Source of the DNA: Chloroflexota bacterium
GTDB lineage: Bacteria; Chloroflexota; Anaerolineae; Aggregatilineales; Phototrophicaceae
Direction of reading: 5' to 3'
Assembly: GCA_028875185.1 (NCBI GenBank)
Contig: JAPPFH010000131.1
Coordinates: 62,001-126,000, forward strand
DNA: 64,000 bases
The notes under the pieces are model-generated. The model was not told the origin of the DNA. It was given only the letters and a program-made list of their open reading frames with translations, and made no database searches. Shown piece by piece: positions 44,147-57,407 of the stretch. The translations under genes were made by a program, and so were the position numbers. Positions within the stretch are counted from its first letter, which is position 1. The number at the start of each line of letters is the position of its first letter.

Positions 44147-45577
44147 TCAATCAGCGCATCCGTCGGCAACGCGCTTGGCAAACTCGCGCGCTTCGACGAG
44201 CGACGAAATCTCACCAACGGCTTGCGCTTCCCGCAAGCGCGTCAGAATCCGCCCGATTCGCGGTCCGCGCTCAATGTTCAGCAAAGCTTGCAGATCGTTG
44301 CCATCGAGCAAGAGTCGCGGGCTGACGATTGTGTCGTAGCGGTTGAAAAAGGCGTCGAGCAAAATTGCTGACCGCTCTACAATTTGCAGCCAATCGGCTT
44401 GTTTTAGATCGCCGCCCGCCCGGCCCAAGACTCTAGCCGCCCCCAGCAGGACAGCGTCTATGCCGTTCTCGCTCTGCCGATACCAAAATCGGTGTTGATC
44501 CAGCGGGCGCCAGTTCTCACGTTCGCTAATGGCGTCACTATTCCTTACAGCGGCGGAAAGAACGCGCGATTCAGCTCTTGTGAGGCGCAGCAAACGAGCG
44601 CTCGTCTCCCCCCCGGGTTCGTTGGAAAACACAGCGTCCGCTGGCGGTTTCGCCGCGCCTTGATCAGCTAGCAGAGCTGCCAAGGCCAGCAATTGAGCCC
44701 GCGTCCGACCGTTTCCATAAACTCGCTCGAGATGGTTTTGAAGCGCGCCGCGAAAGCGATCCAATTGGATGACCAGCATGCCCAGGTCAAAAGCGGCCGC
44801 GGTGTTGTCCGTACGACTGCTGCTGATTGCGGCGAGAATCGCAGACATGCGCTCCACCGCCGCCAGCGAGGCGTCCAGCGCGTCCAGTTCAAGCGGAAGG
44901 ATCGGCGCGAGAACACCCATATGCGCGAGCACACGCAGGCCCCGCGCCGCCTTTTCCATAGCAAGCAGCTTAAAGAACTCGTCGCGAACGCGTTCGGGCG
45001 ATGTCTTGGAAATGGCCGCGGCATGCCGTCGGATGTCAGCCGCCGTTTCAGGATGTATCCTCAGGTCGAATTGCACGCTTAATCGCACTGCCCGCAGCGC
45101 GCGAATTGGATCATTGGCGATTGCGCTTGGCGAACAGCGGCGCAGCGCTTTCCGGCGCAGGTCGGCGACGCCCTTGAGCGGATCAAGTAAAGCCCGGGGA
45201 TCCCCCAGCAGGTCGGCCGCCATCGCGTTCATCGTGAAGTCGCGGTCGTGAAGGTCATCTTCCAGCGTTGCGCCGCGGAGTTTGGCGAAGTCGATTGTGA
45301 TCGCGCTGTCCTCATGCGTGACGAATACCCGCGCTACATTGCGCTCTCGATCCATGATGTAGATATCGGCTTTCCAGGCATCGGCGACGAAGCGCGCTAC
45401 GGCGATGGCGTCGCCCGCGACGGCGACGTCTATATCCCCAATCGCGCGACGCAAGTAAGCGTCGCGAACCGCGCCCCCAACCAGATAGAGCGGCGGGGTA
45501 TTCGGCATTGCTTTCGTCACTTTGGAGAGTTCGTAGACGATATCCGTCCACGACAATCTGACGGCAAGGTCACTCAT
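44147..45577 (-). CDS. cca: CCA tRNA nucleotidyltransferase / poly(A) polymerase family
   Basis: A 476-residue class II nucleotidyltransferase of the CCA-adding/poly(A) polymerase family. The catalytic head shows LVGGAVRDAYL and GDIDVAV (two metal-binding Asp), then the neck LHDRDFTMNAMA, and the RNA-binding region DPIRALRAVRLSVQFDLRI. The window's tRNA-His lacks an encoded CCA, so this enzyme is needed to complete it. The C-terminal half is less conserved. It overlaps the hypoxanthine phosphoribosyltransferase stop by eight bases and closes the arg-car operon. Confidence 0.92.
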   Translation of the reverse strand: MSDLAVRLSWTDIVYELSKVTKAMPNTPPLYLVGGAVRDAYLRRAIGDIDVAVAGDAIAVARFVADAWKADIYIMDRERNVARVFVTHEDSAITIDFAKLRGATLEDDLHDRDFTMNAMAADLLGDPRALLDPLKGVADLRRKALRRCSPSAIANDPIRALRAVRLSVQFDLRIHPETAADIRRHAAAISKTSPERVRDEFFKLLAMEKAARGLRVLAHMGVLAPILPLELDALDASLAAVERMSAILAAISSSRTDNTAAAFDLGMLVIQLDRFRGALQNHLERVYGNGRTRAQLLALAALLADQGAAKPPADAVFSNEPGGETSARLLRLTRAESRVLSAAVRNSDAISERENWRPLDQHRFWYRQSENGIDAVLLGAARVLGRAGGDLKQADWLQIVERSAILLDAFFNRYDTIVSPRLLLDGNDLQALLNIERGPRIGRILTRLREAQAVGEISSLVEAREFAKRVADGCAD

Positions 45578-46149: not shown

Positions 46150-49100
46150 CTATTGCGCCACAACCGCCTCGTAATGAGACTGCAAACTGCGCACGCTCAG
46201 TGGTTTCTCGCGCATGCGTTTGATGCCTTGCACGGCAGCGGCGGCGGCGCTCATCGTCGTGATAATCGGGATGCCCAGCGCGTAAGCCTGGCTGCGGATG
46301 GCGACGCCGTCCGCATGCGCCTGACTGCCAAGCGGCGTGTTAATGATCAAGCTCACTTGCCCGCCCCGCATAGCATCCATTATATGCGGGCTGCCTTCCG
46401 ATATCTTGTTGATGCGGCGGGCTTTGACGCCCATCTGGTTGAGCCAGCGCTCGGTGCCATCGGTAGCGGTGATTTCAAATTTGAGCTTGGCCAAATCGCG
46501 GGCGATCTTGGCAACGACCGGCTTGTCGAAATCATTAACGCTGATGAAGACCGTGCCACTCGCTGGCAAGGACAATCCGGCCGACGCCTGCGACTTTATG
46601 AAAGCATGCCCAAAGCTGGACGCGTGGCCCATCACTTCGCCGGTGGAGCGCATTTCCGGTCCAAGCCGCGTATCGACGCCGGGAAACTTCTGAAAGGGAA
46701 ACACTGCTTCCTTAATGAAGAAACCGCTGACTGAGGGTTCTTGCAGGAAGCCCAATTCCGCCAGCGTCGCTCCGGCTGCGATCCGCGCCGCGTAGCGCGC
46801 TAACGGATGACCGGTCGCCTTGCTGATAAAGGGCACGGTTCGGCTGGCGCGCGGATTGACTTCCAACACGTAGACCTCGTCATCCTTGACCGCGAATTGA
46901 ATATTGAACAAGCCCTTTACACCGAGCGCCAAGCCGATGCGCCGCGTATGGTCGCGGATGATATCCAAATGAAAATAACTGATCTTGTACGGCGGCACGA
47001 CACAGGCCGAGTCGCCGCTATGGACACCGGCCTGCTCAATGTGCTGCATGATGCCGCCGATGGTCACGTCGTTTCCGTCGCAGAGGGCGTCGACATCGAC
47101 TTCATAAGCATCATCGAGAAATTGATCAATCAAGACCGGATGCCCGCCCCATTCGACATTGCCATCCAGCCAATCCAGCAGCTGCCCTTCATCAAAGACG
47201 ATGGCCATGCCGCGCCCGCCCAAGACGTAGCTAGGGCGAACCAGCACTGGATAGCCAATTGCCGCAGCCGCTATAGCCGCTTCGTCCCGGCTTGAGATCG
47301 TCGCCCCGGCCGGCTGCGCGATATTCAAGCGCCGCATCAACGCGTTGAAGCGCTCGCGGTCTTCGGCGAGATCAATTGTATCGACCGGCGTCCCCCAGAT
47401 TGGCGCGCCCATCCGCTCCAGATCGCGCGCGATATTCAGCGGCGTCTGCCCGCCAAATTGCGCCAGCACGCCATCCGGCTGTTCGCGGTCGACGATATTC
47501 ATCACATCCTCAGCTGTGAGTGGTTCAAAATAAAGCCGATCGGCTGTGTCGTAATCGGTACTGACCGTCTCCGGGTTGCAGTTGACCATGATCGTCTCGT
47601 AGCCCGCCTCTTTTAAGGCGAAGCAGGCATGTACGCAGCAGTAATCGAATTCGATGCCTTGGCCGATGCGGTTAGGTCCGCCGCCAAGGATCATTACCTT
47701 GCGCGTCTCGCTCGGCGCTGCTTCATCTTCCATTTCGTAGGTTGAATACAGGTAAGGGGTCATCGCTTCAAATTCGGCGGCGCAAGTATCTACTCGATAA
47801 TAATTTGCTTCGACGCCGAGCCGCTTTCGTAGCTCGCGCACCGCCAAACCCTCCGCGCCAAATAAGCCTGCGATATAGGCGTCGCTGAAGCCAAACTGCT
47901 TCAGCTTGCGCAAGTCGGCCGCAGCCAAATCATGCAGTTGCAAAGCGCCCCCCACCACCGATCGGTGAATCGCCATTAGATCGCTCATCTGCTGCACGAA
48001 CCAGGGATCGAAATGTGTGTTGCTTACAATTTCTTCAAAGGAGACGCCGCTTGCGATAAGACTGGCCACTTGGAACAGACGCTGCGCCGTCGGCACACTA
48101 AGAGCCTCCGGCGTTAAATTGCTATCGACCTGGCTGCCGAATCCATCCATGCCAATATCCAGCGAGCGCACGCCCTTCTGCAGCGCTTCGGGAAATGTGC
48201 GGCCGATCGCCATCACTTCGCCGACCGCTTTCATTTGAGGCCCCAGCACCGGGTCAGCGCCGGCAAATTTCTTGAAGTCCCAGCGCGGTATCTTGACGAC
48301 GATGTAATCCAACGATGGCTCAAAGCTGGCGGGCGTTTTCAAGGTGATATCGTTGGGAATCTCATCGAGCGTAAAGCCGACGGCGACGAGCGCCGCGATC
48401 TTGGCTATTGGGAAGCCGGTCGCTTTGCTCGCCAAAGCCGATGAGCGGGAAACACGCGGGTTCATTTCGATGACGTACACTTCGCCATCGTCTGGATTGA
48501 TTGCGAATTGCACATTCGCCCCGCCCGTAGTTATGCCGACGCGGTCGAATATCTTCCGCGACATGTTTCGCAGCCGCTGAATCTCCTTGTCGGTCAAGGT
48601 TTGCGCCGGCGCGATCGTGATGCTGTCGCCGGTGTGTACGCCCATAGGATCCAGATTCTCGATTGAACATACGACAACGAAATTGCCTTTGGCATCGCGC
48701 ATGAGCTCGAGCTCATACTCCTTCCAGCCGAGCAAACTCTTGTCGACAAGCACTTCGCCGACCGGGCTCTGTTGGATGCCGTTTGCCGCGACCCGCCGCA
48801 AGTCGTCCGCATCGTAAGCGACGCCGCCGCCAGCGCCACCCATCGTGTACGAGGGCCGTATCAAGATTGGATAGCCGATTTCACCAGCAAAAGCCAAAGC
48901 GTCTTCAACACGGCTCACAACTTTGCTGTCGGGCACCTTGAGGTTGATTTCGCGCATGGTGTCGTTGAATAGCTGGCGATCTTCCGCCAACTGGATGCTG
49001 GTCAAGGTGGCGCCGATGAGTTCGACGCCAAGACGATCCAGCAATCCCGATTCCTTCAACTGCACCGCCAGATTTAGCGCGGTCTGGCCGCCGACCGTTG

Positions 49101-49362
49101 GCAGCAAGGCGTCCGGTTTTTCCTGGGCGATGATCTTCCCGCAAATATCCGGCGTCAGCGGTTCGATATAAGTGGCATCAGCAAATTGCGGGTCGGTCAT
49201 AATCGTCGCCGGGTTGGAATTGACCAGAATGACCCGGTAACCTTGCGCCTTGAGCGCTTTGCAAGCCTGCACGCCACTGTAATCGAATTCGCAAGCCTGG
49301 CCGATGACGATCGGACCGGAGCCGATGATCATGATGCTGTTAATGTCAGTGCGTTTGGGCAT
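46150..49362 (-). CDS. carB: Carbamoyl-phosphate synthase large subunit
   Basis: The 1070-residue CarB makes carbamoyl phosphate from bicarbonate, ATP and ammonia delivered by CarA. Two homologous ATP-grasp halves are clear ([20 protein letters not shown], then [19 protein letters not shown], with [13 protein letters not shown] and [12 protein letters not shown]). The C-terminal MGS-like allosteric domain ([11 protein letters not shown], then SLIINTPLG) is intact. It is placed downstream of arg genes and carA, so carbamoyl phosphate output may be set by arginine supply. Full length, no frameshift seen. Confidence 0.98.
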
Positions 49363-50536: not shown

Positions 50537-51769
50537 TTATGAACGGTAGTCGCCGTTGATCGAGATGTATTCGTGGCTGATGTCGCAAGTCCAAATCGTC
50601 GCGGCGCCGGCGCCGATGCCGCAATCCAGGGTGAATGTGATCGATGGTTCCGCCATAATCGCCGCCGCGTCTTCTTCGCGGTAATCGGTGGGCATTCCCC
50701 CGCTGAAGATTTCCAAGCCTGGCGCATCACTTGCGAATGACTCGCCAGCCGCGATCCAAAGTGATGCGCTATCGGGCTCCAGCGGCACATCCGCCCGTCC
50801 GGCAGAGGCCATGATGCGCCCCCAGTTGGCGTCGCTGCCGTAGAATGCCGATTTGGTCAGCACCGACGCGCCAATCGTCTGCCCGATTCGCTCCGCATCC
50901 GCTACCGATGCCGCGTTCACAATGTTGAGCGTGATGAACTTGGTGACGCCCTCGCCATCGCGGACCACTTCCTGCGCCAGGAACCGCGTAAGCGCATTCA
51001 GGGCATCTTGAAACGCGTCAAGCTCTTGCTCGGTAGACAGGCTTAGGCCGCTCATCCCGTTCGCAAGCAGCAGGACGGTGTCGTTCGTGCTGGTATCGCC
51101 ATCGATTACAATCCGGTTGTAGCTCTGCTGCGCCGCCGCTGAGAGCGACGACTGCAATTCGGGCAGCGGCAGTCCGGCGTCGGTCACAAGTACGCTAAGC
51201 ATCGTCGCCATGTTGGGCGCAATCATGCCGGCGCCCTTGACCATTCCAGCGATCGTATAGGCGCCCTCGCCCGTCTCGACCGTGACCGAACCCAGCTTGG
51301 GACGGGTGTCGGTAGTCATGATGCCGGCGGCGGCCGCGCGCCAGTCCGCGCCCAGGTTCGCGCTCGCCAGCTCGACGCCGCGGGCAATCTTGTCCATCGG
51401 CAGGTGCGTGCCAATAACACCGGTGGACATCACCAGCACTTGCTCGGCTGCAATATCAAGCGTGTCGGCGACCAAGTTGGCTGTCGCGCGCGCGTTCTGC
51501 AGTCCAAGCGCGCCGGTGCAGGCGTTCGCGCTGATTGTATTGGTGGCCACCGCCCGAATCGAATTCGGGTTCTCATCCAATCGCTGCATATCGAGCAAGA
51601 CGGGCGCCGCCTTGACTTTATTGCGCGTGAATACGCCAGCGGCGATGCAATCGACCTCGCTCGCCACCAGCGAGAAGTCCAGCGCGCCATCCTTCTTCAA
51701 ACCCGCATGGACACCAGCGACTTGAAAGCCGCGTACCGATTTCACCGTCGCGCTAACCTTGGACATCAA
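50537..51769 (-). CDS. argJ: Glutamate N-acetyltransferase / ornithine acetyltransferase (ArgJ)
   Basis: A 410-residue N-terminal-nucleophile enzyme that recycles the acetyl group from N-acetylornithine to glutamate. The self-cleavage site is Thr189 in APNMATMLS, with conserved KGAGMIAPN before it and NTISANACTGALG earlier. Its presence indicates the cyclic arginine pathway. Whether it is bifunctional, also using acetyl-CoA, cannot be read from sequence. The start at 51769 (or 51766) overlaps argD. Confidence 0.96.
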   Translation of the reverse strand: MMSKVSATVKSVRGFQVAGVHAGLKKDGALDFSLVASEVDCIAAGVFTRNKVKAAPVLLDMQRLDENPNSIRAVATNTISANACTGALGLQNARATANLVADTLDIAAEQVLVMSTGVIGTHLPMDKIARGVELASANLGADWRAAAAGIMTTDTRPKLGSVTVETGEGAYTIAGMVKGAGMIAPNMATMLSVLVTDAGLPLPELQSSLSAAAQQSYNRIVIDGDTSTNDTVLLLANGMSGLSLSTEQELDAFQDALNALTRFLAQEVVRDGEGVTKFITLNIVNAASVADAERIGQTIGASVLTKSAFYGSDANWGRIMASAGRADVPLEPDSASLWIAAGESFASDAPGLEIFSGGMPTDYREEDAAAIMAEPSITFTLDCGIGAGAATIWTCDISHEYISINGDYRS

Positions 51770-52955
51770 TGCCCTCCAGAATCATCGTCAGCTTCTCGAC
51801 CAATTCGTCGACGTGCTGTTTTTCAACGATGAGCGGCGGGATAAAGCGGAGGGCGTCGGGACCGGAGTTCACCAGCAGCAGCCCATGCTCGTAGCCCTGA
51901 TTTACAATGTCCGCCGGCGGGACGTTCAATTCAATCGCCGCCATCAATCCACGCCCGCGAACATCGGTGATATGCGGACTGTTGATCTCAGAGAGCCGTT
52001 CTAACAGATATTCACCCACCTCTTGGACATGTTCCAGGAAACCGGGGCTGAGCATTCGCTTCACAACCATTTCGCCAGCGCGCATAACCACCGCGCCGCC
52101 GGAGAATGTCGAGCCATGATCGCCCGGCTGCATCGCGCTGCCCACTTCTTCCGTGACCAATATAGCGCCGATCGGCAAGCCGCCGGCCAAGGGCTTGGCC
52201 AAGGTCATAATATCGGGCGTCACGCCGCTGCTGCTATGCGCCCAGAGATCGCCCGTGCGCCCCATGCCACATTGAATTTCATCGAAAATCAGCACGGCGT
52301 CATTCTCATCGCAGAGTTGGCGCAGCGCCCGCAAGAAATCGGCGCTGGCCAGGTTGATGCCGCCTTCGCCCTGAATCGGTTCGACGATCACGGCTACCGT
52401 ATCCTGATCGATGAGCGCTTTGGCGCTGTCGATGCTGTTGAATTCGCCGACAATTGCGCCCGGCACCATCGGTTTGAACGGCGTCTGATACTTCTCCGTC
52501 GGCGTTACTGAGAGCGCGCCCAGTGTGCGGCCGTGGAATGCCTGGGAAAAGCTGATGACATTTGTCTTGTTTTTCCGCTCATTGATGTAGGCCAGTTTAC
52601 GGGCGAACTTCAAAGCGCCTTCGTTGGCTTCGGCGCCGCTGTTGCAAAAGTAGGCTTTGTCGGCAAATGAATTGGCACAGAGCAATTCAGCAAGATCTGA
52701 CAATGCCCGCGTGTGATACAAGCCGCTGACATGAATCAAACCCGTGCTCATCTGCTTGGCGACCACGTCCATCAACTCTCTATCGCCGTATCCCAGCGAG
52801 TTGACCGCGATGCCCGCCACCCAATCGGTATAGGCTTTGCCCTCCGTGTCATAGACCGTGACGCCGTCGCCGCGCTCCAAGACGAATTCCGGCCGACCCG
52901 CCACCGGTACGCTATACTGCTTGTCTTTCTGTATGGCATCCGCTGTTATTGACAT
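51753..52955 (-). CDS. argD: Acetylornithine aminotransferase (ArgD)
   Basis: A 400-residue PLP aminotransferase of subgroup III that converts N-acetylglutamate semialdehyde to N-acetylornithine. The PLP Lys is in LAKPLAGGLPIGA, with CNSGAEANEGALKFARK and the Asp of VLIFDEIQCGMGRTG. In some lineages such enzymes also serve lysine synthesis through LysW, but no lysW is in the window. It overlaps argJ by 17 bases and argB by 10. Confidence 0.94.
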   Translation of the reverse strand: MSITADAIQKDKQYSVPVAGRPEFVLERGDGVTVYDTEGKAYTDWVAGIAVNSLGYGDRELMDVVAKQMSTGLIHVSGLYHTRALSDLAELLCANSFADKAYFCNSGAEANEGALKFARKLAYINERKNKTNVISFSQAFHGRTLGALSVTPTEKYQTPFKPMVPGAIVGEFNSIDSAKALIDQDTVAVIVEPIQGEGGINLASADFLRALRQLCDENDAVLIFDEIQCGMGRTGDLWAHSSSGVTPDIMTLAKPLAGGLPIGAILVTEEVGSAMQPGDHGSTFSGGAVVMRAGEMVVKRMLSPGFLEHVQEVGEYLLERLSEINSPHITDVRGRGLMAAIELNVPPADIVNQGYEHGLLLVNSGPDALRFIPPLIVEKQHVDELVEKLTMILEGIDVQG

Positions 52956-53734
52956 AAGCCCTCGCTAACGCTTGATTCCGCCTCAGTTCCAGTGAATGTT
53001 GTGCCGCCGCGCTTTGTCCAACCCGGCAAATCTGTGATTACCGCTCTTGGCACACCCGATGATAGCACATCCAGAGCGCTTTCAACTTTGGGTATCATAC
53101 CGCCTTGGATTACCCCACGCTCAATCAATTCAAGCGCCTGCGTCCGCGTAAGGCTGCTGGCTAGTTCATCGTCTACGTAAACGCCGGCGACATTGGAAAT
53201 AAAGACCACTGTGTTCGCCCCGATGGCGGCTGCGATAGCGCTGGCGACCGGGTCGGCATTGAGGTTGTAGTTGCTGCGCGCCCCCACGCTGACCGGCGCG
53301 ATCACTGGCGTTACATCACGGTCCAGCAAGTCCACGATAACGTCGCCCCGCACCGAGACCACTTCGCCTGTGAATTGCATGTCCAGTGTTTGATGCCGCA
53401 TTTTGCGCGCCCGTATCAATCCACGATCAACGCCTGAGAGCCCCTGGGCGTCCACGCCCACCGCTAGCAAGTATCGCACAAGTCGCTTGTTAACGCTCCC
53501 GCACAAGACCATCTCTACCAAGGCAAGCGAGTCGGCATCAGTCACGCGCAAGCCGTCGACATATCGCGGTTCGATATTCAGCTTGCGCTGCAACTGCGAT
53601 ATTTCGACGCCGCCGCCATGCACAATGACAATCTGCTCGTCAGCCTGCCCCACCGCGCGCGCAAACTGCTCTATAAGATCGTGGTCGTCCAGGCAGTGCC
53701 CCGACACCTTTACAACACTGATGGCTTTCGTCAT
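52946..53734 (-). CDS. argB: Acetylglutamate kinase (ArgB)
   Basis: A 262-residue amino-acid kinase that phosphorylates N-acetylglutamate. The family glycine motif is VIVHGGGVEISQLQRKL, with YVDGLRVTDADSLALVEMVL and GVIQGGMIPKVESAL. The ATG at 53734 overlaps the argC stop (TGATG). I saw no N-terminal helix of the arginine-feedback-sensitive form, so inhibition by arginine is not predicted. The long frame from 53878 lies inside argC. Confidence 0.94.
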   Translation of the reverse strand: MTKAISVVKVSGHCLDDHDLIEQFARAVGQADEQIVIVHGGGVEISQLQRKLNIEPRYVDGLRVTDADSLALVEMVLCGSVNKRLVRYLLAVGVDAQGLSGVDRGLIRARKMRHQTLDMQFTGEVVSVRGDVIVDLLDRDVTPVIAPVSVGARSNYNLNADPVASAIAAAIGANTVVFISNVAGVYVDDELASSLTRTQALELIERGVIQGGMIPKVESALDVLSSGVPRAVITDLPGWTKRGGTTFTGTEAESSVSEGLCQ

Positions 53735-54738
53735 CAGATCAACCCCAAGGTCTCGTCCAGTCCAAACATCAAGTTCATATTTTGAACCGCTTGGCTGGCG
53801 GCGCCTTTGCGCAGGTTGTCCGTCACGCTTGTGATATGCGCGTGGCGCGGCAGTACAGGCGTAATGCTGATCACGCATCTGTTCGTCTTGACCGCGTGCC
53901 GCAGGGTCGCCTGTTCGCCCAAGGGCAGCACATCGACCAGGGCTTCGCCGCCATACATCTCGGCGTAAAGGTCGTGCAATTCATCGCTCTTCATGCTTTC
54001 ATTCAGCGCAACATAGATGCTCGCCATCAATCCGCGATCGACCGGCAGCAAATGGGGGCAGAAAATAATTGGTCCGACGCCATCGCTAAGCTTGCGCGCC
54101 TCCTGCTCCATTTCGCCGACATGTCGATGCGAGCGTCCCGTCTTATAGGGAATCAGATTGCTGTAGACCTCGGCAAAATGCGTGGTTAGCGATGGCTTGC
54201 GTCCCGCGCCGGTGACACCCGATTTGGCGTCCACGATGATGGGACTGCCTTCGCAGAGCGCCCCGCATTGGAGCGCGGGATAGAGACCGAGCAGAGTGGT
54301 GGTCGGATAGCAGCCGGGCGTCGCCACCACATCGGCGCCGACGATATTCTGGCGGTTGATTTCCGGCAAGCCATAGGGCGTGGGCAGCAGCTCGGGGTGC
54401 GGGTGGGGCGTATTATAGGACCGCGCGTATGCTTCCGGCGTATCCAGCCGAAGGTCAGCCGAAAGATCCACAACTTTGACGCCCGCGTCGATGCCCTTCT
54501 TCGCCATTTCCGCCGAGGTTTTATGCGGCAGTGCGAGAAAAATCACATCAACCCCTTCAAGCGAAACGGCATCAGCAGGACTATATTGCAGGGTTGTGTC
54601 AATCACATCATCACCGGCATACGTATTTGAGGTGGCAAATGCCAGATCAATTTGCGGATGGCGCGCCAGGATCGCTATCAGATCAAGACCGGCATATCCT
54701 GAGCCGCCATAAACGCCCGCTCGAATTCCGCTATCCAT
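53734..54738 (-). CDS. argC: N-acetyl-gamma-glutamyl-phosphate reductase (ArgC)
   Basis: A 334-residue NADP-dependent reductase making N-acetylglutamate semialdehyde. The Rossmann loop is GVYGGSGYAGLDLI and the catalytic Cys is in VVATPGCYPTTTLLGLYPAL. The His of RHVGEMEQE is also present. It is the first structural gene of the arg-car operon and lies only 20 bases after the terminator of the leader. The ATG at 54738 has GGGAG upstream. Confidence 0.96.
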   Translation of the reverse strand: MDSGIRAGVYGGSGYAGLDLIAILARHPQIDLAFATSNTYAGDDVIDTTLQYSPADAVSLEGVDVIFLALPHKTSAEMAKKGIDAGVKVVDLSADLRLDTPEAYARSYNTPHPHPELLPTPYGLPEINRQNIVGADVVATPGCYPTTTLLGLYPALQCGALCEGSPIIVDAKSGVTGAGRKPSLTTHFAEVYSNLIPYKTGRSHRHVGEMEQEARKLSDGVGPIIFCPHLLPVDRGLMASIYVALNESMKSDELHDLYAEMYGGEALVDVLPLGEQATLRHAVKTNRCVISITPVLPRHAHITSVTDNLRKGAASQAVQNMNLMFGLDETLGLI

Positions 54739-54757
54739 TGCTTTCTCCCTAACTAAA

Positions 54758-54790
54758 GAAAAAACCCTGACCTTTGCTCGAGACCAGGGT
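54758..54790 (-). terminator. Leader terminator (attenuator) before argC
   Basis: On the reverse strand, ACCCTGGTCT (54790-54781) pairs with AGGTCAGGGT (54773-54764) over ten base pairs, two of them G-T, with a seven-base loop, followed by six Ts and C. It lies between the leader ORF and argC, where a terminator can only act by stopping the operon early. Confidence 0.75.
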
Positions 54791-54817
54791 GTGTTTTGCT
54801 AATGAATGGACGTCTTG

Positions 54818-54904
54818 TCACAAACGCCAGCCGCGCGCGCTGACCTCGCTAATTGCGAAACGGCAGCGCCTTTCGATTCCATTTTCCGGCGTTTGGTCAA
54901 TCAT
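54818..54904 (-). CDS. Candidate arginine-rich leader peptide of the arg operon
   Basis: A 28-codon ORF from ATG 54904 to TGA 54820-54818, beginning MIDQTPENGIERRCRF and ending SARGWRL. Five of 28 codons are Arg, with Arg12, Arg13 and Arg15 clustered (ERRCR). It starts about 24 bases after the predicted transcription start. Codons 20-22 contain AGGTCAG (54846-54840), which can pair with CTGGTCT of the terminator's 5' arm exactly as the terminator's own 3' arm does. A ribosome stalled at Arg12-15 would leave AGGTCAG free (antiterminator); one reaching the stop would cover it (terminator). The ribosome site is weak (GGGA about 15 bases upstream). Confidence 0.6.
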   Translation of the reverse strand: MIDQTPENGIERRCRFAISEVSARGWRL

Positions 54905-54934
54905 GGTAGCTGATCGCTTTCCCACACACGCTGG

Positions 54935-54963
54935 ATTCTAGTTGTCGCTGCGGCAATAGTCAA
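54935..54963 (-). promoter_or_regulatory. Near-consensus promoter of the arg-car operon
   Basis: On the reverse strand, TTGACT (54963-54958), a 17-base spacer and TAGAAT (54940-54935). Start of transcription near 54928. No ARG-box-like palindrome was recognised by eye. Confidence 0.75.
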
Positions 54964-55141
54964 CGCAGGGAAATATCTCTATGCAGAATTTCAATTCCGT
55001 TGTGCAATCTATACGAAGGAAATGAAGCTGAATAGCGAAAATTGGGTTATCATCGATAGAGTCTGGGTCGCTTGCCGCGTTGGCTGGCGCCACGGCATTG
55101 AGAGGATCACTGCGCAATTCTCCGTCGAGCTCGTGAAAAAC

Positions 55142-55170
55142 TTGACAAGCAATCAAATACACGTTAAATT
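55142..55170 (+). promoter_or_regulatory. Candidate sigma-70 promoter of rpoD
   Basis: TTGACA at 55142-55147, a 17-base spacer and TAAATT at 55165-55170. This would give an untranslated leader of about 230 bases before rpoD. Other A/T-rich patches lie nearer the gene (TATAAA at 55273) but lack a -35. Confidence 0.5.
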
Positions 55171-55409
55171 ATGCTTTGTAATATGGAAATGCGGTCAAGA
55201 TGTCGCTTTAATCCTCTGATTATTGTGCGAACGACAGATGACCGTCAGCGAGACCATCGCCGTAAATTTCTGTATAAAATTGTGCAGGACGGCGCATGGA
55301 AATCTAGGTGAGAATGGCGCGGTCTCATTTGCCCAAAAATGGGAACTTGGTTAGATTGCGTATGGTAGCAAGTGTGTTTGTCGAAGAGAAGCGGTAGAAA
55401 GGCAAGTCC

Positions 55410-56702
55410 GTGGTAGCGGTATTGGATAACGTAAGCAATTTGACGCAGCGCGAAGAGTTGCGGAAGCAGCTAATCGATAAGTCAAACAGTCAAGGCTTTG
55501 TCACTTACAGCGACATTCTGGAATTGATGCCGGATGTTGAGAGCGATGTCGCTTTGCTTGATGACCTCATGGATAGCCTCCTTGAGTCTGGAATTGAGGT
55601 TATTCCCGGGGCAGCCAAGCCGGATGAAGATCGGGCTGACGCCGATGAGGCGAAAGGGGCAAAGCCGCTGTCCGATGCCTTGACCGCCGACGACGAGGAC
55701 GACGAGCGCGACGCCCTGCACAAGGTCTTAAAGAAGGACTTGACAGCCGACGCCGGGTACCAAGCCGCTCTCGATACGGATGATGTCGTCGGGCTCTACC
55801 TAAAGGAAGCGGGTCGCGTCCCTCTGCTGACCGCGGAAGAAGAAGTGATGTTGGCAAAACGCATGGAGGCGGCCGAGTTCGCCCGCGAGCGGTTGGAAGA
55901 CTGCGAAGAAACGCAAGTGTTTGAACTCAGTTGGAGCCAGGAGCAAGGCTTGCGCGCGACGATGCTGGACGGCGAAAAAGCGCAAGAACACCTGATCCGC
56001 GCCAATGCCCGGCTGGTCATCAGCGTGGCCAAGAAGTACATTGGCCGTGGCGTTCCCTTTCTTGATCTCATTCAAGAGGGCAATATCGGCCTTATTCGCG
56101 CCACCAACAAGTTTGAGTATCAGCGCGGGCATAAGTTCAGCACCTACGCCACCTGGTGGATCCGCCAGGCGGTTAGCCGCGCTGTCGCCGATCAGGGCCG
56201 GACGATCCGCGTCCCGGTGCACATGGGCGATCAGCTTAACCGCATGCGGCGCGTTCAGTTGCAATTGCTGCAAGAGTTGGGGCGCGAGCCCAAAATAGAT
56301 GAATTGGCGCTCGGCATGGATACAACGCCGGACAAGGTCGAAAACCTGCTGGAGATCTCGCGGCGGCCAGTGAGCCTGGAAACGCCGATAGATGATGAAG
56401 GCGATTCAACCTTCGGAGACTTTGTAGAAGACAGCAACAGCCCGGCGCCATCGGAAGAAGTCGCCACCCATCTGCTGCATGTTCAGCTGCAGCAGGCGCT
56501 TGACAAGCTGCCCGATCGCGAAGCGCAGATCTTGCGTTTGCGTTACGGGCTGGCTGATGGGCGCGTTTATACATTAGAGGAAGTCGGGCAGACAATCGGC
56601 GTTACGCGTGAGCGCGTTCGCCAGTTGGAAGCGCAGGCGCTAAACCGGCTGCGGCAATCTTCAGCCCATGTGATCCTCAAGGATTACCTGTACGAGGTCT
56701 AA
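55410..56702 (+). CDS. rpoD: Primary sigma factor (RpoD/SigA)
   Basis: A 430-residue sigma-70 protein that directs RNA polymerase to housekeeping promoters. Region 1.2 is DDVVGLYLKEAGRVPLLTA; region 2 is AHLIRANARL-like (QEHLIRANARLVISVAKKYI), then DLIQEGNIGLIRATNKFEYQ and KFSTYATWWIRQAVSRA. Region 3 is PVHMGDQLNRMRRVQ, and region 4 is the HTH (YTLEEVGQTIGVTRERVRQL). A short acidic N-terminal domain stands in for region 1.1. Translation starts at GTG 55410 with AGAAAGG upstream. The promoters found in this window have near-consensus -35 and -10 hexamers, matching this sigma type. Confidence 0.96.
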   Translation: MVAVLDNVSNLTQREELRKQLIDKSNSQGFVTYSDILELMPDVESDVALLDDLMDSLLESGIEVIPGAAKPDEDRADADEAKGAKPLSDALTADDEDDERDALHKVLKKDLTADAGYQAALDTDDVVGLYLKEAGRVPLLTAEEEVMLAKRMEAAEFARERLEDCEETQVFELSWSQEQGLRATMLDGEKAQEHLIRANARLVISVAKKYIGRGVPFLDLIQEGNIGLIRATNKFEYQRGHKFSTYATWWIRQAVSRAVADQGRTIRVPVHMGDQLNRMRRVQLQLLQELGREPKIDELALGMDTTPDKVENLLEISRRPVSLETPIDDEGDSTFGDFVEDSNSPAPSEEVATHLLHVQLQQALDKLPDREAQILRLRYGLADGRVYTLEEVGQTIGVTRERVRQLEAQALNRLRQSSAHVILKDYLYEV

Positions 56703-56749
56703 GGTCCGGTTCTTGGCAAGATAGCGCTGGCTTGAATGTTGATTATGCT

Positions 56750-56785
56750 GACCCCACTCACGATACGTGTCTGGGGTCGTTTTTA
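56750..56785 (+). terminator. Intrinsic terminator of rpoD
   Basis: GACCCCA (56750-56756) and TGGGGTC (56772-56778) form a perfect seven-base stem, followed by GTTTTTAT. It lies 47 bases after the rpoD stop. Confidence 0.85.
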
Positions 56786-56843
56786 TAATTGCACGGCGCC
56801 AAATTAGGCTGACGTCAATAATCGCTGCCGGAGATCACTCGCA

Positions 56844-57407
56844 ATGCACAGCGCCGGATTCGACCCTTCTCAACTGATTTTCCGCGACGGCGTCGATACC
56901 GATATACCTTATTGTCTGGCGCTGGACAGCGACTTTCATAGCGACCATGTTTGGCAAATGACCGTGCAGGACGCTGGGGAAGAAGTCCGCGTCAGTTGCC
57001 GCAAGCAAAGGCTTCCGCGTCGGCTGGACTCCCGTCATGCGGCGGACCCGCAGCATCTGGAATTGGCGCTTCGGCGAAAACATTGTTTCGTCGTTGTTCA
57101 GGACAAGCGTAACAATCATATACTGGGTTTCGTCTCGATGCGCGTCGACGAGACCAGCCCGGTCGCTTACCTGCAAAATATCGTGATTGACCGCCCCTTC
57201 CGCCGGCGCAGCCTCGGTTCCCGCCTCGTGCATGTCGTGCAGGTGTGGGCGAGCGAATACCGGCTAAGGCAGATTCTATTCGAGATTCCCACCACCAATT
57301 ATCCCTGCATTCTGTTCGCCAAAGCTCTGGGATTTAGCTTCTGCGGGTTTAATGACCATCATTTCGCCAATCGCGAGATAGCGCTCTTTTTCAGCCTGTC
57401 CATTTGA
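56844..57407 (+). CDS. GNAT-family N-acetyltransferase (C)
   Basis: A 187-residue GNAT enzyme. The core is VAYLQNIVIDRPFRRRSLGS followed by RLVHVVQVWASEYRLRQIL, with the acetyl-CoA loop in FRRRSLGSRL. It has an N-terminal lead (LIFRDGVDTDIPYCLALDSD) and a C-terminal strand with ALGFSFCGFND. Acceptor unknown. It lies between rpoD's terminator and the membrane GAF/HTH gene, 64 bases before the latter. There may be a weak own promoter near 56785-56820, but I did not find a convincing one. Confidence 0.85.
   Translation: MHSAGFDPSQLIFRDGVDTDIPYCLALDSDFHSDHVWQMTVQDAGEEVRVSCRKQRLPRRLDSRHAADPQHLELALRRKHCFVVVQDKRNNHILGFVSMRVDETSPVAYLQNIVIDRPFRRRSLGSRLVHVVQVWASEYRLRQILFEIPTTNYPCILFAKALGFSFCGFNDHHFANREIALFFSLSI

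Follow-up and report, generated by a model that had tools for sequence, protein, structure and literature searches.

The question raised by this locus is how arginine synthesis is controlled in a bacterium where the usual regulator is not found. Bacterial arg operons are usually controlled by ArgR together with ARG boxes. ArgR (PF02863) was detected in none of 61 draft genomes, i.e., the own genome and 60 relatives, the control rings being positive in 8/14. In the window (the whole stretch of 64,000 nucleotides of Chloroflexota DNA that was analysed) the operon argCBDJ-carAB-hpt-cca is preceded by a short Arg-rich ORF and a terminator. This arrangement is very probably an arginine-specific ribosome-mediated transcription attenuator of the operon, as judged from sequence comparison and modelled folds. 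The reading is built on the observed parts with their geometry and conservation, on compensatory pairing and, for the window, on a predicted fold switch.

The genes of the operon are the following:

53734..54738, reverse strand, argC (N-acetyl-gamma-glutamyl-phosphate reductase), first gene of the operon; TIGR01850, 327 bits, cut-off 233.6; ATG at 54738
52946..53878, reverse strand, argB; TIGR00761; coordinates of the ORF as listed
51753..52955, reverse strand, argD; TIGR00707
50537..51769, reverse strand, argJ; NF003802 and TIGR00120
49401..50624, reverse strand, carA; TIGR01368; listed ORF, the true start being probably about 35 codons in
46150..49362, reverse strand, carB; NF003671 and TIGR01369
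45570..46163, reverse strand, hpt, hypoxanthine phosphoribosyltransferase; TIGR01203, 202.9 bits, cut-off 150
44147..45577, reverse strand, cca, CCA-adding-enzyme-like; best NCBIfam match 107.2 bits vs. a cut-off of 438.8, below every family cut-off

In the profile search argC, argB, argD, argJ, carA, carB and hpt were all above the NCBIfam cut-offs. The true start of argB is probably later than that of the ORF, because the TIGR00761 match begins at residue 54. The gene order argCBDJ-carAB-hpt-cca is the same in 4/4 genomes checked of the window genus. These family matches and this order bear out the operon proposed in the first-pass annotation, i.e., arg-car genes, hpt and cca behind argC. 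A sigma-70-family gene (55410-56702) is divergent from the operon. On the operon strand, from 43800 to the leader, the consensus scan gave no promoter-like site and there are three weak, partly overlapping terminator-like calls (both strands: 6 vs. 11.8 in shuffles).

Ahead of argC the following features are localized:

54980..55006, reverse strand, upstream element TGCACA-N15-TGCATA, 16 nt upstream of the -35 box; candidate operator or activator site
54935..54963, reverse strand, sigma-70-type promoter TTGACT-17-TAGAAT; -35 at 54963-54958, -10 at 54940-54935; 10 of 12 consensus positions
54818..54904, reverse strand, putative leader peptide ORF of 28 codons, MIDQTPENGIERRCRFAISEVSARGWRL; ATG at 54904, TGA at 54818; counterpart in 32/32 genus orthologues
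54860..54871, reverse strand, putative regulatory codons Arg12 (AGG), Arg13 (CGC), Cys14 and Arg15 (CGT); first codon AGG in 32/32
54840..54848, reverse strand, region 2 (5' strand of the antiterminator) CGAGGTCAG, inside the leader ORF; pairs with 54787-54779
54779..54787, reverse strand, region 3 CTGGTCTCG, terminator 5' arm plus loop, common to terminator and antiterminator; from comparative pairing
54759..54790, reverse strand, intrinsic terminator; stem 54790-54764 of 10 pairs including two G-U; six T at 54764-54759, the first T being also paired

The promoter, the 28-codon ORF with its five Arg (codons 12, 13, 15, 24 and 27), the segment AGGTCAG (54846-54840, codons 20-22), the terminator and argC had been described in the first-pass annotation, correctly base for base. 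Considered by itself, the scan for promoters and terminators is within chance: positions 54000-56000 contain 4 promoter-like sites vs. 1.3 expected (consensus scan) and 1 terminator-like site vs. 2.3 expected from shuffles. It is the comparison with relatives that lifts the arrangement above chance.

Within the window genus 34 genomes were searched, 32 of which have an orthologous argC (G019 and G024 carry only a distant argC paralogue). The promoter, the in-frame leader ORF with its Arg cluster, region 2 and the terminator are present ahead of all 32 argC orthologues; TTGAC and TA.A.T of the promoter are conserved across the genus. The peptide sequence is variable (RRRRPARVGFSARALCL, RPRRAIALIEFSVDLLHS, RRGINREMEIGADLPDC and others). 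Despite this variation the Arg cluster, GAG.TC.G (i.e., region 2, with few departures) and the terminator are constant. In the first 52 columns of the alignment (the ORF part) the gaps are multiples of three in 32/32, which is what a translated ORF would give. The first-pass annotation had expected conserved Arg-rich short ORFs and covarying arms in related Chloroflexota; both were found, in 32/32 genus members, with compensatory changes, and in further families.

The rare codon AGG (54871-54869, reverse strand) is the first clustered Arg codon in 32/32 genus members, and all of them have at least 3 Arg in the stretch of 7 codons that this AGG opens. AGG represents 42/118 Arg codons in the seven-codon leader windows vs. 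4/251 in the window operon plus the sigma-factor gene. The invariant AGG may act as a regulatory codon of the hypersensitive kind that selective-charging theory describes (PMC1183508), or it may reflect a structural constraint. No strong Shine-Dalgarno sequence was seen by eye before the window leader. In several of the f42 loci L209, L211-L213 and L215-L217 the leader ATG lies, by eye, only about 10 nt past the apparent -10 box, thus the leader may be translated there leaderless or nearly so.

The pairing of region 2 with region 3 was examined on the 32 genus sequences. It is formed in 89.5% of cells, with 4 pairs changed on both sides; its covariation score is matched by 0/500 shuffles, and at most 53% is paired when the partner is slid by 1-3 columns. 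Column pair 38:92 alternates between C-G (17), U-A (8) and U-G (5). Column pair 28:102, a position outside the terminator stem, is A-U in G023 vs. G-C in the other 31. For the terminator, with nine pairs aligned over the 32 genomes, 99.7% of cells are paired. In the window the region 2:3 duplex has nine contiguous pairs (p=0.003 vs. 300 shuffles of the ORF tail). For most genus members, however, the duplex test on a single sequence fails, because 22/32 have a U-U mismatch in the region 2:3 core (column pair 31:99).

In the order-wide alignment of 40 leaders, the terminator has 5 pairs changed on both sides and 0/500 shuffles reach its score. The antiterminator is 85.2% paired (reached by 2/500 shuffles) and its covariation score is reached by 56/500, a weaker signal which is due in part to the g11 leaders being one base out of register. 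Over 79 leaders the contiguous-duplex test gives p<=0.05 in 36, and the mean duplex score is 17.9 within a leader vs. 14.6 between lineages. This set derives from 102 stretches: 20 were removed by hand and 3 more lacked a terminator according to the finder (L196, L199 and L229, the last one preceding argC with an Arg-rich leader). Among the 20, 18 had no Arg leader or no downstream arg gene (including the Cys leader L226), and the other two (L203 and L228) precede argC but have short Arg-run ORFs that end early. The exclusion was uneven, as the 79 leaders include L177, L184, L186 and L210, without an arg gene in the stretch (L210 is at a contig end). Some automatically picked ORF starts lie upstream of the likely ATG, and the frame of G015 is wrong in the duplex test and right in the folds.

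These data bear on a simpler reading, in which the short ORF is the gene of a small Arg-rich protein followed by its ordinary terminator, argC being separately controlled. The ORF and the terminator do adjoin. However, in the genus the conserved part of region 3 includes loop bases of the terminator (CTC), and region 3 covaries with region 2; from the leader to argC the consensus scan gave no further promoter-like site on the operon strand. This reading is considered very improbable: a lone terminator or a small protein gene was rejected on the covariation and the region 2:3 complementarity tests.

Concerning the geometry, the first-pass annotation had placed the Arg codons where a stall would leave region 2 just clear. 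In the 32 genus members region 2 starts 3 to 18 nt past the last clustered Arg codon (median 12 nt), roughly at the position expected for the leading edge of a stalled ribosome, in agreement with that proposal; in 7/32 the gap is 3 nt, and there the ribosome has to stall at an Arg codon further upstream to leave region 2 clear. The companion proposal, i.e., that a ribosome finishing the leader masks region 2, is doubtful in the window genus because region 2 ends 19 nt before the stop codon (31/32 members; 22 nt in the other one). A distance of 19 nt is about at, or past, the upstream edge of the ribosome footprint. The window fold pairs GCGCTG (54869-54864) with CAGCGC (54842-54837), and modelling makes sequestration of region 2 by upstream RNA likelier in the window genus than its masking by the terminating ribosome.

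Folding with and without codons 20-22 masked had been expected to swap the structures. Minimum free energy folds of the complete leader with masks do not swap and give the terminator every time, because the finished terminator always wins. Attenuation is settled before the 3' arm exists, therefore the transcript was folded only up to that point, and it is these folds that show the switch in the window. In the window the predicted probability of region 2:3 pairing is 0.00 without ribosome, 0.35 with the ribosome at the first clustered Arg codon, 0.97 at the last one and 0.00 at the stop codon. For the same four states the medians are 0.02, 0.86, 0.84 and 0.13 in the genus and 0.03, 0.92, 0.95 and 0.02 for 17 class-level leaders; the 30 order-level leaders have no predicted switch (0.94, 0.97, 0.97 and 0.90). 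Of the 79 leaders, 41 have a stalled value more than 0.1 above both the free and the stop values, and 3 have one that is lower by such a margin, keeping in mind that stalled folds favour 2:3 by construction since only the RNA downstream of the ribosome was folded. The values for the free and stop states shift with the assumed 5' end (e.g., free values of 0.28, 0.00 and 0.06 for G008, G016 and G027 become 0.79, 0.70 and 0.79).

When the upstream RNA was shuffled, 0/40 shuffles gave a 2:3 pairing as low as that of the window at the stop state, which favours a protector in the window. In the genus the same control gave a weak signal, 2:3 being below the shuffled mean in 24/32 (free) and 19/32 (at stop). 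A dedicated protector (region 1:2) is thus weakly supported in the genus by the modelling. Region 1 is plain by eye in f42, where several leaders show the 1:2 hairpin as CAGACC...GGTCTGG. In L213 the ORF contains CGTCGCCAGACCATTGGTCTGG and the terminator CCAGACCACATGTTGGTCTGG, therefore regions 1 and 3 are alike, and regions 2 and 4 are alike, in f42.

From these parts we infer that the leader ORF is translated, that arginyl-tRNA is the signal, and the direction of control, according to the following scheme: (i) when arginyl-tRNA is scarce, the ribosome would stall on Arg12-15 of the leader; (ii) region 2 (54848-54840), about 12 nt ahead of the stall, would then be free of both the ribosome and the upstream RNA; (iii) free region 2 would pair with newly made region 3, no terminator would form, and the polymerase would enter argC; (iv) when arginyl-tRNA is ample, the ribosome would move on to the stop codon and region 2 would be captured by upstream leader RNA (in lineages with region 2 nearer to the stop codon the ribosome itself would perhaps cover it); (v) with region 2 captured, region 3 would pair with region 4 and transcription would end before argC.

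The same RNA switch could respond to a different signal, the leader sensing translation stress or acting through an arrest-inducing peptide (polybasic run, antibiotic). Consecutive Arg codons alone can slow ribosomes. However, outside the Arg run the peptides diverge between lineages, which suggests that the codons rather than the peptide matter, and the identified genes behind accepted leaders are argC or argG, with the exceptions of three g22 loci and L178. Such a signal is considered unlikely, and an arginine-specific one is retained.

A further layer may be present upstream of the promoter. The element TGCACA-N15-TGCATA occurs once in the whole window vs. 0.04 expected and is matched in 31/32 genus upstream regions (one of which ends in TGCATG), with a gap of 16 nt to TTGAC in 30. 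Judged from its sequence conservation, it is likely bound by some regulator, ArgR itself being one that the search did not detect in this genome. A GCACAA repeat, similar to this element, is also seen before argC in L028, a locus with no leader. That 31/32 genomes keep TGCACA-N15-TGCNTA, 30 of them at the same spacing from the -35 box, would suit a control exerted mainly at initiation, with a minor or vestigial attenuator. This is hardly probable as the main control, since it leaves the leader, the Arg codons and the compensatory arms unexplained; both layers may act together.

The design also recurs outside the window genus, across the order and the class and in Roseiflexaceae. When 154 genomes of the order were scanned with covariance model R1, 101 had a match at E<=1, many of these matches being probably plain terminators. 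Among 40 non-genus R1 loci that were fetched, argC is downstream within the fetched stretch in 28. Order-level leaders are of the type PRRRRSRRPQTxEVxxGFLCW with arms GAGGTC/GACCTC; genus g11 has arms TGAGGTTCG/CGAACCTCA and terminator arms CCCCGAAC/GTTCGGGG. Model R2 was run over 396 genomes of the class and 84 had E<=0.01; 14 of 30 fetched loci have argC downstream, eight of these in family f42. Four genomes of the same family as the window (L222-L225, in G135, G122, G121 and G082) have a second Arg leader with a terminator before argG (argininosuccinate synthase), e.g., MKTHIYISSHRRIRRRLTISREFLR, argG being above its cut-off in 4/4. The arm pairs differ by lineage and stay complementary: GAGGTTCGG/CCGAACCTC, GTGTGTC/GACACAC, GGTCTGG/CCAGACC and GAGGTC/GACCTC.

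Upon 80 named argC loci, R2 is strong in five (L023-L027, at least some of which are on contigs of genomes already used). The next one is L030, from a Roseiflexaceae bacterium, with a match at E=0.069 directly before argC (MLRRADRRRVRIGPGSVIRIG; duplex test p=0.38); further named loci are weaker. By NCBI, Roseiflexaceae belong to class Chloroflexia, i.e., outside Anaerolineae, the label of several named window relatives. The own genome has one strong covariance-model match (next E=0.44), and in the 249 nt before its argG match no Arg leader with a terminator was found. Its argC paralogue is preceded, by eye, by apparently coding sequence, and these searches gave no second attenuator in the own genome.

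Other observations were made in these searches. In genus g22 the gene nearest to the leader is a metallophosphoesterase (PF00149) at L177, L184 and L186, with no argC in the stretch, and at L178 a luciferase-like monooxygenase (PF00296) stands between the leader and argC. In g22 a gene may have been inserted after the attenuator, or the attenuator may have acquired another target. Family f81 (L244-L246, L248-L250 and L255), outside the window's class and with genomes of 6.0 to 6.8 Mb, has ALRLRRPRT leaders. Six of its seven leaders have arms GAGGTTCGG/CCGAACCTC (or CCGAGCCTC), like genus g11, a likeness that may come from shared descent or from convergence. Finally L226 (G042:C1:45861-45978, reverse strand) combines a Cys-rich leader, MFCMHRVPVHTLCRCQPSCGCCSAACCGCGLCACLCC, with a terminator, i.e., a candidate cysteine attenuator; its downstream gene matches TIGR00971 (188.6 bits vs. 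a cut-off of 155.5), the family of a sulfate ABC transporter substrate-binding protein.

The survey at the level of the phylum was selected by argC and not by an RNA model. The phylum sample comprises 301 genomes, 262 of which have an argC match, and ArgR is present in 72/301, all 72 being outside the window's class. The detector rule was at least 4 Arg in seven codons plus a terminator, upstream of argC. It was applied to the 29 best-scoring argC loci besides the own one and to 40 loci picked manually so that different families, with and without ArgR, were represented. An Arg-rich leader with a terminator was found before argC in 20/49 ArgR-negative vs. 0/20 ArgR-positive genomes; the 20 include 7 closely similar f81 leaders, and G135, which is also in model R2. 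On shuffled upstream DNA the detector gave 3/490 and 0/200. Leader and ArgR are never together in these 69 genomes, with p=0.0003 by genomes, a value that is inflated by relatedness; by families the leaders are in 7/30 ArgR-negative vs. 0/6 ArgR-positive (p=0.32), and 23 ArgR-negative families have neither. The mutual exclusion of leader and ArgR, seen at the sequence level, is therefore only a lead.

The outgroup offers the small-protein reading some further ground, as a chance Arg-rich gene end with a terminator stands before argC in 10/64 loci there. In all ten the Arg-rich stretch closes a longer ORF, and these matches were rejected as artefacts: the ORFs end in ARRRKQFSKR or ARRRPQYSKR, and the one tested (L057) is ribosomal protein S9. 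None of the ten shows region 2:3 complementarity at p<=0.05, vs. 14/20 ArgR-negative leaders (six of them f81). Seven further named Chloroflexota loci gave 4 detector matches, one of them with p<=0.05; no leader was found by the detector rule at L028, L048 and L096 (Chloroflexota).

As the leader recurs in many relatives with no ArgR detected, the speed of ribosomes on Arg codons is probably what reports the arginine level in these bacteria. On balance, large parts of the Chloroflexota seem to control arginine synthesis without ArgR, through arginine leader-peptide attenuators before argC and, in some, also argG; the device is possibly ancient, regions 2, 3 and 4 having been rewritten together many times, and the window genus would be tuned by the invariant AGG. 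This broader proposal is favoured with moderate confidence, i.e., less firmly than the attenuator of the window.

With regard to known systems, a fungal short upstream ORF, the arginine attenuator peptide, also senses arginine, before a carbamoyl-phosphate synthase gene. There, arginine stalls the ribosome via the nascent peptide and the control is translational, whereas in the present case a shortage of arginyl-tRNA is expected to cause the stall, and control would be exerted through transcription termination. ArgR likewise lowers arg expression when arginine is ample, but it is a DNA-binding repressor. A T-box also senses tRNA charging and switches a terminator, while the sensor is here a putative translated ORF. 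No Rfam family matched 53000-57000 at E up to 1, T-box included, and seven related loci gave 15 matches, all to microRNA families below gathering scores. A T-box riboswitch or a known Rfam amino-acid leader (His, Leu, Thr, Trp and others) was thus discarded for want of a model match.

The his, trp, leu, thr, phe and ilv attenuators resemble the present one, as described in PMC9413887 and PMC1262725: a leader ORF with cognate codons, an arm shared by terminator and antiterminator, and a position before a biosynthetic operon. The subject of PMC9413887 is histidine regulation. Unlike the his/trp type (Proteobacteria, Actinobacteria, and some his leaders of Firmicutes), the amino acid is here arginine, the phylum is Chloroflexota, and region 2 is inside the leader ORF, at the distance from the stop codon given above for the window genus. 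According to PMC6386406, orf34 of the Salmonella speF leader also involves pausing at consecutive Arg codons (12 and 13), an RNA change and a gene that is on at low arginine; it differs by its target (ornithine decarboxylase) and by the use of Rho, structure at the ribosome-binding site and RNase G, and the sequence analysis reported there gave no rho-independent terminator. For Pseudomonas carAB, PMC4997734 mentions a leader peptide reported from the P. aeruginosa carA promoter region, before a carbamoyl phosphate operon, for which attenuation was proposed. That attenuation is ascribed to pyrimidines, arginine control being transcriptional, with ArgR named in the references (PMC4997734).

Among surveys of regulatory RNA, that of Actinobacteria reports no conserved RNA structures upstream of arginine operons (PMC1262725); in the main text of the premature-terminator survey arginine, argC, argG and Chloroflexi are absent and carA appears once (PMC2965389); the structured-RNA survey includes a cysS attenuator and a carA motif (PMC8632094). 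In the open-access literature that was searched, no bacterial leader-peptide attenuator of an arginine operon was found, and novelty is provisional. The mechanism is known in kind; its specificity for arginine at an arg operon, the phylum and the ArgR-less setting appear new.

Apart from speF, the attenuators met in the literature searched respond to amino acids other than arginine and are from Proteobacteria, Actinobacteria and Firmicutes. An arginine attenuator in several Chloroflexota families that look ArgR-less is a candidate for arginine control in largely uncultured bacteria. In the window operon, one arginine-tRNA sensor is predicted to govern carbamoyl phosphate synthesis and possibly the genes of purine salvage and tRNA repair. 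The lineages offer a set of natural variants of one switch, its three arms having been rewritten together, and the invariant AGG makes selective-charging theory (PMC1183508) testable in a new setting. If the reading is true, it would define an arginine class of ribosome-mediated attenuator replacing a repressor at the scale of classes.
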